Below the pieces are notes generated by a model. That model was not told the origin of the DNA, searched no databases, and saw nothing but the letters and a program-made list of their open reading frames with translations. Positions 54,899-62,003 of a stretch of 64,000 nucleotides of DNA are shown here, piece by piece. This DNA comes from an uncultured Hyphomonadaceae bacterium (GTDB taxonomy: Bacteria > Pseudomonadota > Alphaproteobacteria > Caulobacterales > Maricaulaceae): assembly GCA_913058335.1 (NCBI GenBank), contig CAJXPX010000003.1, positions 62,001-126,000 of the forward strand. Direction: 5' to 3'. The first letter of the stretch is position 1; each line of letters opens with the position of its first letter. Position numbers and translations under genes: made by a program.

Positions 54899-55594
54899 TT
54901 AAGCGCTCATTTTATCCTTGGAGGGATCCCGCAAAACATAGCCTCGGCCCCAGACAGTTTCGATGTAGTGATCGCCTTGTGTAGCCGACGCCAATTTCTT
55001 GCGCAATTTACAGATAAAGACGTCGATAATCTTCAATTCGGGTTCATCCATACCACCGTAAAGATGGTTCAGGAACATTTCCTTTGTCAGGGTCGTCCCT
55101 TTGCGAAGGGATAAAAGCTCCAGCATTTGATATTCTTTGCCGGTCAGGTGAACACGGTGATCGCCGACTTCAACTGTCTTGGCATCGAGGTTCACTTTAA
55201 TGTCGCCTGTTGTGATGACTGATTGGCTGTGACCCTTGGAACGGCGCACCACAGCGTGAATACGCGCGACCAGCTCGTCCTTGTGGAAAGGCTTAGTCAT
55301 GTAATCGTCAGCGCCGGTTCCGAGGCCTCTGACTTTCGTATCAATGTCAGACGTACCGGACAGAATGAAGATAGGTGTATTGACCTTCGCCATACGCAAT
55401 GTCTTCAGCACATCGAAGCCCGGCATATCAGGAAGGTTCAAGTCGAGAAGGATAATGTCATAATCGTAGAGTTTGCCGAGATCGACGCCTTCTTCCCCAA
55501 GGTCCGTTGTATAAACATTGAACCCTTCTGTCTTGAGCATTAGTTCAATGCCCTGTGCTGTCGCACTGTCATCCTCAATTAATAGTACACGCAT
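54899..55594 (-). CDS. ctrA: Cell-cycle master response regulator CtrA
   Basis: 231 residues, identical in length to Caulobacter CtrA and very close over the N-terminus ([40 protein letters not shown]). Receiver phospho-acceptor Asp51, conserved [20 protein letters not shown], then an OmpR-type winged-helix DNA-binding domain ([13 protein letters not shown]). The C-terminus is KMSA rather than ending Ala-Ala, the degron used by ClpXP in Caulobacter. It controls cell-cycle and motility genes by binding TTAA-N7-TTAAC. Upstream half-sites suggest autoregulation. Confidence 0.98.
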
Positions 55595-55952
55595 ACTTCC
55601 CTCCCAGGCGAATCATTGTCTCTAGCCGATGAGACATGGTTAATGGAACTCAATCGGTAAGGGAATCCCGTAAACCAAATGTTAACGGCATTAACCAATC
55701 TGACCGAAATGTCAGAAAAACTGCCATTTTATATGAGAAAGGCCGTTAATAGATCTAAACAGGCGGTAAGACCTCCTAATGTTTTTTAACCCTATCCCTT
55801 CACTGAATCGCAATTCTGTTGACCTATAAGAGTTTCAAAGACGGTTAGAGCGACAAATCATTTCATAAGATTTGCGTTTCTCTCCGGGCCTTCTGAGTAG
55901 AAGGATGGTGAAGATCGGCAACGATCACAGTGAGATATGTTGGGAGATAAAA
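55595..55952. promoter_or_regulatory. ctrA upstream region (CtrA-type sites, GANTC sites)
   Basis: Seen in this 358-base divergent region: GAATC (a GANTC methylation site) at 55610-55614 and 55663-55667, the half-site ATGGTTAA (TTAACCAT on the coding strand) at 55636-55643, and TAAA-N7-TTAAC at 55671-55686, one base off the TTAA-N7-TTAAC consensus, with a further TTAAC at 55691. Such sites flank ctrA in Caulobacter, where CcrM methylation and CtrA itself time transcription. The part nearer the FliJ-like gene (55700-55940) shows no certain motif beyond its own GGGAG site. Confidence 0.6.
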
Positions 55953-56327
55953 ATGGCACACTCTATGGATAAGTCTGTCCAGAAAACCAGATTTGCAATT
56001 TCCGAGTTGCAAAAGCGCATTGGTGTCCTTGAAGCCACTCGTGAGGATTTGGAGCGTCAAATCCGCAAGCTCAACGATAGCGTACCGGAAGATAATGTCG
56101 ATCCGAATGCCCAAAAAGAAGGCTATGTCGCTTACGGCTCTTATGCCAATTCTGTTATTAATCGAAGAGAGAACCTACGACGTTCCCTTGACGACATTTT
56201 AGATCAGACCGGAAATCTTTCCGAGGATCTACGCATTGCTATGGATTCTCTCGACAGTTTCGAACGTGTTCGCGCCCGCCGCCTAGCTACAAAAGCAGAA
56301 AAAGCCATGAATCGCCGCACCGGATAA
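55953..56327 (+). CDS. Coiled-coil protein, FliJ-like
   Basis: 124 residues from ATG 55953, where GGGAG precedes at the right distance; the longer in-frame ATG at 55872 gives an unlikely N-terminus. The whole chain is heptad-rich: ISELQKRIGVLEATREDLER, QIRKLNDSVP, NRRENLRRSLDDILDQTGNL, RARRLATKAEKAMNRR. Coiled-coil architecture beside ctrA, in the position held by flagellar export genes in some relatives, suggests FliJ, but no fliI follows, so this is inference. A terminator ends the unit. Confidence 0.6.
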   Translation: MAHSMDKSVQKTRFAISELQKRIGVLEATREDLERQIRKLNDSVPEDNVDPNAQKEGYVAYGSYANSVINRRENLRRSLDDILDQTGNLSEDLRIAMDSLDSFERVRARRLATKAEKAMNRRTG

Positions 56328-56825: not shown

Positions 56826-57668
56826 TTAGAAGCGGTAACGACCGCGGAGCATGACCGGAATAGTAGTTCTTCCCCGGCTATTATTTGTTCCCGCTATCGG
56901 TGAACTGCCCGAAATGGTACTTGAGCTGTCCAGAGCCTGCGTATAGCGCACACCTGTTTCAATACCAATGGTGGAATAACGCGTTAACGGAGTTTCAATC
57001 CCCACGAGAGCAGCGGCGGAACCTACCCATCCACTATCATAAAATCGTGTGTTTAGGGCCGGAGTATCGACATTATTGATAGAGGCGTTCTCGAGTGAAA
57101 TATCGTCGACATAACTTGCCCCCAGGCGCCCTTCCACATAGGGACGAACGCTATTAACAATGACTCCCGGACGGGGTTTGAAATATTGGCGCAAACCGAT
57201 TTCGCCGCCGTAAGATTCATAATCTGACAAAGAGCCGCGAAGGTTTTGTCCCGTCGCGACATCGCCCCAATCCTGCACACCCGAGCTTTCCGCTTTTTCT
57301 AAATGCGCAATGGCGGTCACTTTGCGGTTTGGATTAACAGCATAGGATACACCCAGCTCTGCGCGGTAACCTGTATCATACATGTCGTTCCAAGACAGGT
57401 TATTGATATTTTTGCCCGCAATTTGATGCGTTTGGTCGCCCGTAACAGCGTCGCCACCAACAGGGAAAGCTGCCCCAATGCCGCCTTCAATATTCCAACG
57501 GGCTAAGCATTGCCCGCTGTGGCAGGCCTTTGGAGCCTGAGGGGCCGTGTTGTGACCGTAATAGCCGTTATGGGCCTGATGGTGTGAATAGTTATTCTGT
57601 CCACCAAATCCAAGGAAAGAACAGCCTGAAAGCGCGATTGTCGCTGCGCCGAGTAGTAAAATCCGCAT
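56826..57668 (-). CDS. Outer-membrane beta-barrel lipoprotein, paralog 1
   Basis: 280 residues from the ATG at 57668, eight bases after AGGA (the ATG nine bases upstream would sit on that site). Signal MRILLLGAATIALSGCSFLG has its lipid cysteine at position 16, exactly as in the two paralogs. A His/Tyr-rich segment (YSHHQAHNGYYGHN) and a CHSGQC pair precede a beta-barrel of alternating strands ending TTIPVMLRGRYRF with a C-terminal Phe. Shared blocks with the paralogs: DYESYGGEIGLRQYF, VRPYVEGRLGASYVDDISL, STIGIETGVRYTQ. Function unknown. Confidence 0.8.
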   Translation of the reverse strand: MRILLLGAATIALSGCSFLGFGGQNNYSHHQAHNGYYGHNTAPQAPKACHSGQCLARWNIEGGIGAAFPVGGDAVTGDQTHQIAGKNINNLSWNDMYDTGYRAELGVSYAVNPNRKVTAIAHLEKAESSGVQDWGDVATGQNLRGSLSDYESYGGEIGLRQYFKPRPGVIVNSVRPYVEGRLGASYVDDISLENASINNVDTPALNTRFYDSGWVGSAAALVGIETPLTRYSTIGIETGVRYTQALDSSSTISGSSPIAGTNNSRGRTTIPVMLRGRYRF

Positions 57669-57822
57669 TGTTTTCATCCTGTGTTCTGAATTGGCACAAT
57701 TGCCGACACGTCAATGTGTTGCGTTATGGCCATGCAATTACAGCACCAGTCTAAATATTCTGATTGGAAACGTGGTTTATAGTGAGTAAAAAATTTGTCG
57801 AAAAATAATGTCTTGCAGACAT

Positions 57823-57851
57823 AAAAAAAGCCCAACCAATGGTCGGGCTTT
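57823..57851 (-). terminator. Terminator of OMP paralog 2
   Basis: Minus-strand stem AAAGCCCGACCA/TGGTTGGGCTTT-type (one mismatch) followed by a T-run (A-run 57823-57829). It lies just after the stop at 57872. Confidence 0.8.
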
Positions 57852-57871
57852 CAGATAAGATTTTAATTTTA

Positions 57872-59176
57872 TTAGAAGCTAACGCGTCCGCGAAGTTTCA
57901 CAGGCACCTGCCAACGGTCATCCGATTGCACATTTGTTTGCAAATCGTCTGTCCAGCGAATTCCAGTTTCAATGCCAATGGCTGTCCGGGCGCCAACTTG
58001 ATACTCAGCGCCAATCACACCTGCCGCAGTCGGCGTCCACCCGCCCTCGACATATTGTTGCGTTTCAGTCCCGCCTGCGCCGCCGTTGAAGGCCGCAGAT
58101 GTCTGACTTAGCGTTATATCATTAGTGTGAGTAAAACCACCGGAGACACCTACATAAGGGCGCAATCCTGTCAGGCCATTATTAAATCCGCCGACATATT
58201 TCCGAATTCCGCCTTCGACAGTATATTGTTCCATATCCGACAGGCGACCAGTAATCGGAGCGGTCACTCCGTTTTCTGTGGCATCACCCAATGAAAAGTC
58301 CTTACCCTCCGCTTCGCTATATCCAACGCGCGCTAGAACTGTTGTAGAGGGGCTAAGGTCATAAGTGGTTGCCAAATCATAGCTAACGCCGTTTTCAAAC
58401 GCGTCTTTATAGCTAACTGCAGGCGTGGCAGAGACAAGTCTATTTGGATCCGGCTGTCCATTTTCATCCAAAGCCGGGCCGGCGCCCTTTCCCGGAAAAA
58501 GTTCTCCATCAACATCAAAGCTTGTGCCAATACCGGCCTCAAAGCCAAAGGGTAGAGCGGCACTTCCGCCGCGAAGGCCCGCCGTTTGATAGCTACAACA
58601 TGCGCTCTCAACACGAACAGGTTGTTGATAACCACAACATGCGCCTCCGGCGGCATAGGGTTGCGGCACATATATTGGATCGCCCTGAATGTTTTGAACA
58701 TAGGCGCCGTCTACATATTGCCCGTTAGACAATTGCGTCCCGACAACATTCTGTCCGTAGGCACTTCCTTGTCCGTAATTTGCCTGCCCATATGCCCCTT
58801 GAGCATATCCACTTTGACCGTATGCCGCTTGTTGACCGTATGCCCCTTGTTGACCGTAGCTCTCCTGTGCATACCCCTCTGACGATGCACCATAGGCAAC
58901 TTGCCCATATTGGGGTTGGCCATAACCAGCTTGATTGTATCCAGCTTGAGCATATTGAGTTTGTCCGTAACCAGCCTGTTCATAGCCCATTTGGCCATAT
59001 TGACCATACCCGGCCTGACCATACCCGGCTTGACCATAAGCCCCTGAGAAGCCTGCATATGACGCGTCATATGCGCCGCCTGCCTGATACCCATAATTGG
59101 CCTGATGTCCGCCCGAACCTAGCCAAGAGCAACCTGATAATAATACTGCTGATAAAGCGCAAACTGCGAGCCGCAT
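57872..59176 (-). CDS. Outer-membrane beta-barrel lipoprotein, paralog 2, with Tyr/Gly/Gln/Ala-rich tract
   Basis: 434 residues from the ATG at 59176 (GGGAGG upstream; an earlier ATG at 59218 is in frame). Signal [20 protein letters not shown], lipid Cys16. Residues 28-142 are a low-complexity tract of YGQ, AGYGQ and related units, followed by two Cys-Cys pairs (180-181, 193-194). The barrel from about 205 ([20 protein letters not shown]) carries the family blocks [52 protein letters not shown] and ends [13 protein letters not shown]. The exposed repeat domain could be a surface or self-assembling segment; that is inference. Confidence 0.82.
58751..59095 (-). repeat. Coding tandem repeats for YGQ-type units
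   Basis: Imperfect 15- and 18-base repeats, for example GCCGGGTATGGTCAG (Ala-Gly-Tyr-Gly-Gln) repeated back to back near 59000-59035, and Gln-Gln-(Gly/Ala)-Ala-Tyr-Gly units near 58815-58860. They encode residues 28-142 of OMP paralog 2. Confidence 0.9.
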
Positions 59177-59318
59177 ATCGGCCTCCCTTTTCCCAAAACT
59201 GGTTCTATTCTGTTTCACTTTAAATCAGGTTATACTTAATAAAGCGTTGCCAAACCTAAAACAAAACCTTAACTTTCAATCGACTAAACGGTTAATCGCC
59301 ATAATTAACGTCGATTTC

Positions 59319-60629
59319 CTAGAAATTATAACTTCCGCGAATGGTTAGTGGGATAGCAATATTAGTATCCCCTTTCTCATCATTGGCATATTTCCGAGCA
59401 CCTTCAATACGTAGGCCCGTCTCGAATGCTAATCCAACGCGCGGCGTTAATTGCCAATCAATCCCTGCATTCAACTGACCAGATGGCACCCACTGGCTGT
59501 CATACAAATTGACTGTGCGTTCTTGTCCATCAAGATCATAAAATTGCGTCTCTTCCCCATCAGGATCATTAAATGCCTGCTCGTAAAACCTTTGCTGCTG
59601 ATCAGTTGTGTAAGATACGGCATTGTAGTGAGACGCCCCGACAGAGGCCCCTAAGAAAGGTGTGATCGTATTGACACCCCCCGTTTTGTTGACCGGATTG
59701 AAGTAATGTCGCGCGCCGACTTCGACATCATACCGTTTCATATCTGTAAAATCGGCTGAAAAACGTGCAACATCTTCGCTCGGGATAAAAGCTGTTTGTG
59801 TTACAGAGGGGCCGAGTTGCGCGCCTGTGTCATCATAATTCGTTGTTGTAACATCCCGGTAAAGAGTAGCTTCGACCGTTCCGACCACGCCGGATTTTCC
59901 CTCTGCCGCAGAATAGCCGCCCTGAACAAAAACAGTATTTTTGTTCGACAGGATATATTCTCCGCCAATCGCAATACGCGTCGGTGTTGACCAGGCGTCA
60001 TCAAATGAAACCGTCGGAGTTCTAGCTTCATCATAAAGCTCTCCTCCGAAACGATCTCTGGCTCCCGCTGTGTAAGTTGTCCCCTCGACACGACCACTCG
60101 CAACGGAGCCTTCTACGCGGCCTTCTGTAAAGACTTGCGGATTATAGCCAACCGTAGGATCAGTAGACAGACCCGTTTCAGGATCTGTGGGGAAGATCGC
60201 GTAATCCAGAACATTACCCTGAAAGCTTTTCTCCGCCCCGAGGCTTAAGGTTCCACGAAATTTTGGTTTGCGAATGTGTGGGCTTTGACGCTGATAGTTT
60301 GCCCCCTGATGCGCGGCGCTGCCGACATGGGAGCCATATCCGCCAGTGGTATAGCTCGGTTGGCCAAATTGTGGCTGTTGGGGGAAACCGTTTGTCGCTC
60401 TATATTGTGATGTTGCGATGGTAACAGCTGCCGGGTCACACCCTTGCGGCGCGGCGGATTGAGCCGTGTAAACCTGACACGGGTCATAAGCCTCTGGCGC
60501 CTGATAAGCCCCATATTGGCTATTTTGGGCATAAGTATTGTGTTTCTGATGGGAACTACCTGTTAGCCCCCCTAACCAAGAACACCCCGACAGGGCAATT
60601 GCCGATACCGCACATAATACAAGACGCAT
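59319..60629 (-). CDS. Outer-membrane beta-barrel lipoprotein, paralog 3
   Basis: 436 residues. Signal [20 protein letters not shown] with lipid Cys16. A Gln/Tyr/Pro-rich segment (about 30-115, YAQNSQYGAYQAPEAYDPCQ, GFPQQPQFGQPSYTTGGYGS) is the counterpart of the repeat tract of paralog 2. Barrel blocks: YILSNKNTVFVQGGYSAAEG, DMKRYDVEVGARHYFNP, ITPFLGASVGASHYNAVSYT, GLAFETGLRI, ending IAIPLTIRGSYNF. A TTAACCAT half-site and a TAAA-N7-TTAAG site lie 51-94 bases upstream of the start. First of three consecutive minus-strand paralogs leading to ctrA. Confidence 0.82.
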   Translation of the reverse strand: MRLVLCAVSAIALSGCSWLGGLTGSSHQKHNTYAQNSQYGAYQAPEAYDPCQVYTAQSAAPQGCDPAAVTIATSQYRATNGFPQQPQFGQPSYTTGGYGSHVGSAAHQGANYQRQSPHIRKPKFRGTLSLGAEKSFQGNVLDYAIFPTDPETGLSTDPTVGYNPQVFTEGRVEGSVASGRVEGTTYTAGARDRFGGELYDEARTPTVSFDDAWSTPTRIAIGGEYILSNKNTVFVQGGYSAAEGKSGVVGTVEATLYRDVTTTNYDDTGAQLGPSVTQTAFIPSEDVARFSADFTDMKRYDVEVGARHYFNPVNKTGGVNTITPFLGASVGASHYNAVSYTTDQQQRFYEQAFNDPDGEETQFYDLDGQERTVNLYDSQWVPSGQLNAGIDWQLTPRVGLAFETGLRIEGARKYANDEKGDTNIAIPLTIRGSYNF

Positions 60630-60679: not shown

Positions 60680-60723
60680 ATGGTTAACGAAGGAATGCCC
60701 TGTTTTGCTTAACAAGCCGTTTA
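60680..60723 (-). promoter_or_regulatory. CtrA-type sites upstream of OMP paralog 3 (candidate)
   Basis: TTAACCAT (reading the coding strand; 60680-60687) lies 51-58 bases before the start, and TAAA-CGGCTTG-TTAAG at 60708-60723 lies about 80-94 bases before it. Both resemble CtrA/cell-cycle sites, and the half-site is also found at nearly the same distance from ctrA (55636-55643). Confidence 0.45.
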
Positions 60724-61175: not shown

Positions 61176-62003
61176 ATGAAAACGGTTTTAGTGATATCCT
61201 CTTTCGTCGCGTCCAGCCGCGTCGGGGCCACTGTCAGCGCGTTTTGCCTGCGGCGTGTAGGGGTGGAAACGATCGTTTTGCCCACAACCTTGATGGGCCG
61301 TCACCCCGGATGGGGGAACCCCGGCGGCGGCGCGGTGGAAACCACGCAAATTGAAATCATGTGGCAGGCCATCCGAAAACAAGGACTGCGCTTTGACGCT
61401 GTTCTTACGGGATATATGGGCCATGTCGATCATGCCGCCCTAAGCGCTCGCATAATTCGCGAAGTGAAACAGGACAATCCGGAAGCCATAATTCTTGTCG
61501 ATCCGGTAATGGGTGATGAAGGCGCGCTCTATATCCCCGAAGACCGAGCGATGATGATTAAGTCCCAACTTGTGCCACTGGCCGACATATTAACCCCCAA
61601 TGCTTGGGAGCTTTCATATTTGACGGGTAAGGACTCTGATACCGCCCCGGCAATCGCTCAAACAGCTAAAGACTGGCGCGCAGAGACGGATGTTTTAATC
61701 ACATCCGTGCCTATCGATGAGAAAATCGGCGCTGTTCTCGTGACCTCTGAAGGGGCCTCTTTCGTTCAACATAAAAAATTCGATAAAGTGCCCCATGGTG
61801 GCGGGGACGCGCTGGCGGCAACTTATTTGGCGCAACTTCTTCTGGGGTTATCGCCTCGTCAGGCCTTGGAATTCTCTGTCGCGTCCATATTTGAAGTCAT
61901 GTCCGCCGCTATAAAACTTGATGCTGGTGAACTGCCTTTGGTACGAAAACAAGATGCGCTTGTCAGGGCTGACCCTCTGATAAGTAGGAAGATAGACTTA
62001 TGA
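61176..62003 (+). CDS. pdxY: Pyridoxal kinase
   Basis: 275 residues. ISSFVASSRVGATVSAFCLR, LMGRHPGWGNPGGG, VLTGYMGHVDHAA, LVDPVMGDEGALYIPE, LTPNAWELSYLTG and the catalytic HGGGDALAATYLAQLL (anion-hole GGGD). It phosphorylates pyridoxal or pyridoxine in the salvage pathway. First gene of a four-gene unit; the next start overlaps its stop (ATGA). Confidence 0.93.
   Translation: MKTVLVISSFVASSRVGATVSAFCLRRVGVETIVLPTTLMGRHPGWGNPGGGAVETTQIEIMWQAIRKQGLRFDAVLTGYMGHVDHAALSARIIREVKQDNPEAIILVDPVMGDEGALYIPEDRAMMIKSQLVPLADILTPNAWELSYLTGKDSDTAPAIAQTAKDWRAETDVLITSVPIDEKIGAVLVTSEGASFVQHKKFDKVPHGGGDALAATYLAQLLLGLSPRQALEFSVASIFEVMSAAIKLDAGELPLVRKQDALVRADPLISRKIDL

Follow-up and report, generated by a model that had tools for sequence, protein, structure and literature searches.

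Three paralogous genes with lipoboxes and predicted C-terminal eight-stranded barrels in an uncultured Hyphomonadaceae bacterium and its relatives, with CtrA-type sites upstream of the first

Described barrels and lipid anchors

The N-terminal domains of OmpA and OprF are eight-stranded barrels (1qjp and 4rlc; OMP_b-brl superfamily in Pfam), with a peptidoglycan-binding domain behind the barrel. Chains combining a lipid with a barrel include the autotransporters NalP and SphB1, with a C-terminal barrel of twelve strands and a folded passenger, and some homologues of TolC, which are trimeric alpha/beta ducts. In TolC homologues of the OprM and CusC type the N-terminal lipid is in the inner leaflet and the barrel in the outer membrane, and why a chain with its own membrane barrel also has a lipid anchor is stated as a puzzle for this family (PMC13082787). 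The same lipid gain seems to have taken place in a simple eight-stranded barrel in the three consecutive genes considered here, A, B, and C, on the minus strand of a 64,000-nucleotide stretch (positions 62,001 to 126,000 of contig CAJXPX010000003.1, assembly GCA_913058335.1, from an uncultured Hyphomonadaceae bacterium; "the window" below). The genes are paralogs, each with a lipobox, a polar linker, and a C-terminal barrel predicted from structure models or by alignment; their order is conserved, CtrA-type sites precede A in most relatives, and cysteines beyond the lipobox are nearly confined to the linkers. The reading favored, with moderate confidence, is that A, B, and C are outer-membrane proteins timed by CtrA, each held by both lipid and barrel, with a disulfide-bearing periplasmic linker between the two, and that they form a structural patch together.

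The predicted products resemble the OmpA/OprF barrel in fold, strand number, terminal aromatic signal, and charged interior, and differ from it in having a predicted lipid anchor and linker before the barrel. With OprM and CusC they share the combination of N-terminal lipid and outer-membrane barrel, while each chain of the A/B/C type is predicted to form an eight-stranded barrel of its own. Membership of the TolC (outer-membrane-factor) family was rejected, there being no Pfam or NCBIfam match of that kind and, in the models, only short helices outside the signal and no long alpha barrel. The NalP type of lipidated autotransporter was also ruled out, by the eight strands and the mostly disordered N-terminal region, including the linker, in the models of C and A. 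A lipid, an extended segment, and a barrel likewise come together where RcsF is threaded through outer-membrane barrels (PMC4942254), with two proteins there and one chain here. Homologous barrels with plain Sec signals occur in Caulobacteraceae, for example Asticcacaulis excentricus WP_013480983.1 (tblastn E 7e-11, 24.8% identity), which lacks both lipobox and linker and is a single gene in the stretch examined. No publication on the A/B/C family was found in the open-access literature, which does not prove its absence elsewhere.

Sequences and predicted structures

Gene A (59319..60629, minus strand) encodes 436 amino acids, with LSGC at residues 13–16, cysteines 51 and 64 in the linker, and a barrel from about residue 121 to 436. 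Gene B (57872..59176, minus strand) encodes 434 from the ATG at 59176, again with LSGC at 13–16; there is an in-frame GTG 42 bases further upstream, and a Shine-Dalgarno-like stretch precedes the ATG in the relatives aligned. Its linker of about 190 residues is rich in Gly, Tyr, and Gln and has two CC pairs, and its barrel, as judged from alignment to C, is the last ~228 residues. Gene C (56826..57677, minus strand) encodes 283 amino acids, or 280 if read from 57668, where an ATG start is shared by most relatives, with an LSGC lipobox, a linker of about 40 residues with two cysteines, and a predicted eight-stranded barrel over approximately residues 57–283. The initial annotation, made from the sequence, placed the lipid cysteine at position 16 in all three. 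This holds for A and B; in C the cysteine is residue 16 from the ATG at 57668, as in most relatives, and residue 19 from that at 57677. The terminal motif [IV]P[VL]x[LI]RGxxxF, also proposed there, is present in A, B, and C.

Single pairwise BLASTP comparisons gave E-values of 2e-14 (A/B), 6e-11 (A/C), and 1e-18 (B/C); the A/B score comes partly from the low-complexity linkers, and the B/C and A/C alignments run through the barrel. A search of the genome itself with C at E 10 returned four matches, all within A, B, and C. The resemblance is beyond chance and the three are paralogs, in agreement with the earlier description of three minus-strand genes sharing one plan.

The expected C-terminal barrel was recovered by AlphaFold2 as eight strands in both C and A, and is extended to B by alignment to C over the barrel region. 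The C model (57 sequences) has a mean predicted local distance difference test (pLDDT) score of 86.5, with most barrel blocks at 90–99 and the linker mostly below 55. Its eight long strands, read by eye from the DSSP string, are at residues 61–74, 103–115, 118–129, 153–165, 177–190, 216–230, 235–246, and 270–282. The A model (35 sequences; mean pLDDT 81.6) has the same plan, with long inserts between barrel strands and pLDDT near 78 in the linker around Cys51–Cys64. In Foldseek alone, the list for C was headed by OmpA and that for A by larger barrels such as FadL; VIA-align was used as a second look, and eight-stranded outer-membrane barrels then ranked first. Z-scores for the OprF barrel 4rlc were 17.3 for C (root-mean-square deviation 2.3, 131 residues aligned) and 18.4 for A (2.0, 132 aligned), those for OmpA 1qjp 16.1 and 16.8, and those for the designed barrel 6x9z 17.5 and 17.7, with the NspA barrel also in the group at Z 16–18. 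Glu and Arg are frequent on the inward faces of the C strands, and an interior of this kind points to a barrel that is closed or very narrow, and not to a general porin. The aromatic signal for BAM is present at the C-terminus: Phe is the last residue in 157 of 158 open reading frames (ORFs) compared, the exception being a broken ORF.

A lipobox was found by pattern in 149 of these 158 ORFs; of the other nine, eight are ORFs that are truncated or broken and one (L133) is an outlier of Sec type. Signal types, lipobox or Sec, were judged by eye. One extra paralog (L068:7378-8202) is outside the lipobox pattern and has a GTGC-type box by eye. Linker cysteines other than the lipid cysteine were counted in genes with a located lipobox and a profile score above 250, using a fixed barrel length, which makes linker lengths rough; the A gene of L115 was counted from its true LSGC, downstream of another pattern match, and the A-type profile was built without L037:8352-9632, a B-type protein. 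All 38 A linkers have two. Among the 45 B linkers, 33 have two and 12 have four, and among the 63 C linkers 49 have two, three have one, and 11 have none. The barrel is free of cysteine in 38/38 A, 44/45 B, and 60/63 C proteins. Lipidation of Cys16 and disulfides within the linkers would be consistent with these patterns. The B linkers are about one-third Gly, along with Ala, Tyr, and Gln, with 1.3% charged residues. Conserved linker motifs are seen in the family alignments, for example around PIPxGCxPxQVT, with one in B, and argue for a linker function, perhaps in periplasmic contacts.

No named family had been recognized at first sight, and none was found for the window proteins: A, B, and C reach no curated cut-off in Pfam or NCBIfam, porin families included, and have no match to PF13505 (OMP_b-brl) at its gathering score. 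This family is weakly matched by 2/57 C-type (best E 0.0018) and 2/35 A-type members (best E 0.0011), and the Sec-signal relatives come close to passing OMP_b-brl, at up to 27.3 bits (cut-off 28.7), and Opacity, at 19.2 (cut-off 21). Among named families the best match is to DUF3575 (PF12099), which has no function attached; 4/35 A-type members match it at E 0.1. When ten A-type members were rescanned against its cut-off of 21.1 bits, two passed with matches over the barrel, Robiginitomaculum antarcticum (L121; 27.8 bits) and L101 (21.3 bits), one scored 17.3 bits, and seven had no match at E 0.01. Window A, B, and C have none at E 1, and DUF3575 is the nearest named family, not used as a label for them. 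Weak matches to FxLYD, PorG, DUF7840, DUF6089, and Nup_retrotrp_bd were set aside as chance or distant barrel resemblance, and searching the sequences of solved structures with a profile yielded a single match, at E 0.46. The barrel is taken to belong to the OmpA/Opa-like superfamily as a divergent member. PF21785 (5-fold beta-flower) is matched by two of 38 B-type members (best E 5.5e-06), perhaps through linker repeats.

CtrA-type sites and possible roles

In Caulobacter, CtrA is described as having TTAACCAT for its half-site and TTAA-N7-TTAAC for its full site (PMC3692519). The half-site previously remarked before the first gene is at 60680..60687 (minus strand), 58 bases upstream of the A ATG. 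Within the window alone it is unremarkable (four matches, 2.08 expected, and 11 of 100 shuffles reach four); it becomes remarkable because it is conserved upstream of A across relatives. For genes with a located start, a profile score above 200, and at least 150 upstream bases, TTAACCAT was found within 250 bases upstream in 32/37 A genes (shuffle mean 0.36, maximum 2; the shuffles used for upstream regions are resampled from a first-order Markov model and do not keep exact dinucleotide counts), 34–61 bases away. Within 150 bases it precedes 32/37 A and 15/45 B genes, as compared to, among control genes at these loci, 1/36 for arsC, 3/25 for pdxK, 0/35 for an esterase, and 0/19 for a thioesterase. 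Window A also has a degenerate full site, TAAA-N7-TTAA at 60709..60723 (minus strand), with one mismatch to TTAA-N7-TTAA. Such one-mismatch sites occur in 35/37 A upstream regions (shuffle mean 7.0, maximum 13); most are farther from the gene than the half-site by about 36 bases. Upstream of B the window has TTAACC at 59290..59295 (minus strand), a sequence found on either strand in 32/45 B regions (shuffle mean 8.8, maximum 16); for the 15/45 with TTAACCAT the shuffle mean is 0.5. CtrA control appears likely for A and probable for B from these sites, and the case for C is weak. An element resembling TTAAGCA or TTAAGTATA is also common to the A and B upstream regions in many of the species aligned (60704-60712 and 59231-59239 in the window), perhaps part of a core promoter.

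Under the favored reading, the lipid and the barrel would sit in the outer membrane together. They can share it since in a barrel of eight strands both ends face the periplasm, and for the same reason the linker is, on the models, more likely periplasmic than exposed at the surface; it would be a flexible segment carrying a disulfide. CtrA would time expression through the sites before A, and probably B, restricting the set to a single cell-cycle stage, and the products would build a structural patch of outer membrane, probably a mixed assembly of all three. A structural role is plausible since in Rhodospirillum rubrum an assembly of porin and lipoprotein, as separate proteins, shapes the cell (PMC11369160). 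A more elaborate form of assembly, in which the linkers of one paralog, rich in Gly, Tyr, and Gln and bearing disulfides, thread through or cross-link the barrels of the others and interlock all three in one complex, is a speculative extension by analogy with RcsF and is rated improbable; if true, it would be a cell-cycle-timed, self-associating lattice of lipid and barrel in stalked marine bacteria.

Several observations weigh against the favored reading. Window C has no CtrA-type site in the 250 bases upstream; among 65 C-type genes TTAACCAT precedes just three, all in a basal group of lone genes, and exact full sites precede 11 (shuffle mean 1.3). A terminator-like hairpin between B and C (57826..57852, minus strand; 12 pairs and a T tail) argues against one transcript. 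Five such sites were found in the region, with 4.9 expected, and this one was singled out for its long stem and its place. The in/out alternation expected of membrane strands is significant in only four strands of C, weak in 153–165 and 177–190, and absent in 118–129 and 216–230. One cysteine or none is found in 14/63 C-type linkers, and two loci (L085 and L099) keep B and C without A despite room upstream, so that the trio is not obligatory. The sequences compared are, moreover, related, and the counts are not independent.

The most serious rival would make these proteins surface adhesins, with extracellular loops working in attachment to algae or other surfaces, in a display like that of Opa, NspA, or Ail, and with the lipid only an aid to targeting. 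The NspA, Ail, and Opa/OpcA barrels among the fold matches, the long inserts of A, and the isolation of a relative, Algimonas porphyrae, from a red alga all fit such a role, which is nonetheless rated unlikely: similarity in fold shows no function, invariant positions lie in strands and linkers as well, and the conserved linker motifs and paired cysteines are left unexplained. It is doubtful, to a greater degree, that the three are variants of a narrow channel for small solutes or ions of the OmpW/OprG kind. The fold matches include X-ray entries for OmpW and OprG (Z 13.8–16.5); against this stand a C interior rich in Glu and Arg, as in closed barrels, and the lack of any porin family at cut-off for the window proteins.

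Two further alternatives deny the membrane barrel or the lipid, and both are very improbable. Soluble lipid-anchored surface barrels, such as TbpB and factor H-binding protein, would also combine a lipobox with eight strands, and some soluble barrels are in the match lists (PsbO with Z up to 10.9 for C and 11.3 for A; factor H-binding protein 8.6 for A). Transmembrane barrels score well higher (Z 16–18), and the label of soluble surface lipoprotein was rejected on this basis; the terminal RGxxxF with its nearly invariant Phe, the hydrophobic alternate faces of C strands 61–74, 103–115, 235–246, and 270–282, and the closeness of the Sec-signal relatives to the outer-membrane barrel and Opacity families also speak against it. 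Alternatively the cysteine might go unlipidated, with the signal cut by signal peptidase I to give ordinary outer-membrane barrels, as plain Sec signals in the out-of-family relatives inspected might suggest. LSGC-S, however, is found at a near-fixed place in three lines of paralogs and dozens of genomes, and the cysteine would hardly be kept there otherwise.

If A, B, and C are indeed lipid-and-barrel proteins under CtrA control, the conserved sites would offer, in the prosthecate marine relatives of Caulobacter, an outer-membrane target on which cell-cycle control can be tested, and the set bears on how a single client might be shared between Lol and BAM.

Distribution, origin, and gene neighborhood

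A three-row profile matched 29 of 60 genomes, including the source genome. With a C profile, matches were found in 64/137 genomes of the family, in 8 of 19 genera, and in 31/200 genomes of a sample of the order, of which 16 lie outside the family. The named loci, 61 in all, come from Hellea, Litorimonas, Algimonas, and Robiginitomaculum, along with unplaced Caulobacterales, Hyphomonadaceae, or Alphaproteobacteria records. Where 4.5 kb or more of sequence is available upstream of C (46 loci), the order A-B-C is kept in 36 (31 ABC, four ABCC, and one with a split A); two others are BC and eight have C alone. Three of these eight are the basal group L130-L132, and at least some of the others are in genomes also holding the cluster. 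C duplicates locally, to judge from five loci with a second C-type gene between B and C (L100, L107, L111, L119, and L122), clearly longer in three of them. At one locus (JAJRSJ010000001.1; L057 6363-7705 and L113 4924-6266), A is split over two overlapping frames and looks broken, with B and C whole. Two genomes of one genus (L068 and L070) have further barrels elsewhere, in which the lipobox region reads GCAYQG; on the tree they form a more distant line close to C.

In a quick tree of 164 barrels, in which long branches are flagged, six Sec-signal relatives are split from all lipobox proteins (Shimodaira-Hasegawa-like approximate likelihood ratio test 98). If the root is on the Sec side, the lone genes L130-L132 branch first (84), and there are separate clades for A (100), B (100), and C with its extra copies (93), with B and C nearest each other (75). 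Out-of-family N-termini were read in 6 of 16 genomes (L150 and L153 are among those left out) and in two Asticcacaulis plasmid genes, and in all of them the signal is of the Sec type, with no lipobox. In the lone genes a lipobox is present, followed by a short linker with no further cysteine in the stretch read (L056, from the same genome as L130); these genes are near an esterase homologue, and TTAACCAT is upstream in 3/3, in reverse orientation. The simplest path would run from a plain barrel through gain of the lipid to triplication and growth of linkers with paired cysteines. Why a barrel gains a lipid could be asked by comparing non-lipidated relatives, the lone lipobox group, and the triplicated set, a contrast that nature provides. 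The plasmid homologues, from two Asticcacaulis species (L035 and L036), are near a DUF2490 gene and a set of two-component genes, alike in both species.

The side of the cluster with arsC, pdxK, and the esterase and thioesterase homologues is widely shared among loci. The ctrA gene (54899..55594, minus strand) adjoins the cluster in the window, and its position, together with the half-site, had been taken as a hint of cell-cycle or pole-related surface proteins, with conservation of gene order around ctrA put forward as a check. The A-B-C order is kept; adjacency to ctrA (at 60% identity or more) is not, being found in 2 of 97 loci, those of the source genome and one near relative (G003), with the qualification that many of the 97 cover overlapping parts of the same genomes and some stop a short way from the cluster. 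Since ctrA adjoins the cluster only in these two and is outside the conserved cluster, its adjacency was rejected as a clue to function. The ctrA gene itself has TTAACCAT upstream (55636..55643, minus strand). The window contains three exact TTAA-N7-TTAA sites, against 1.48 expected, and none of them is close to A, B, or C; a scan for sigma-70 promoters was uninformative (three found, 5.6 expected). Divergent from ctrA is a small coiled-coil ORF (55872-56327, plus strand) with a weak match to FliJ (E 0.005), which adjoins ctrA in a near relative (L039) as well.

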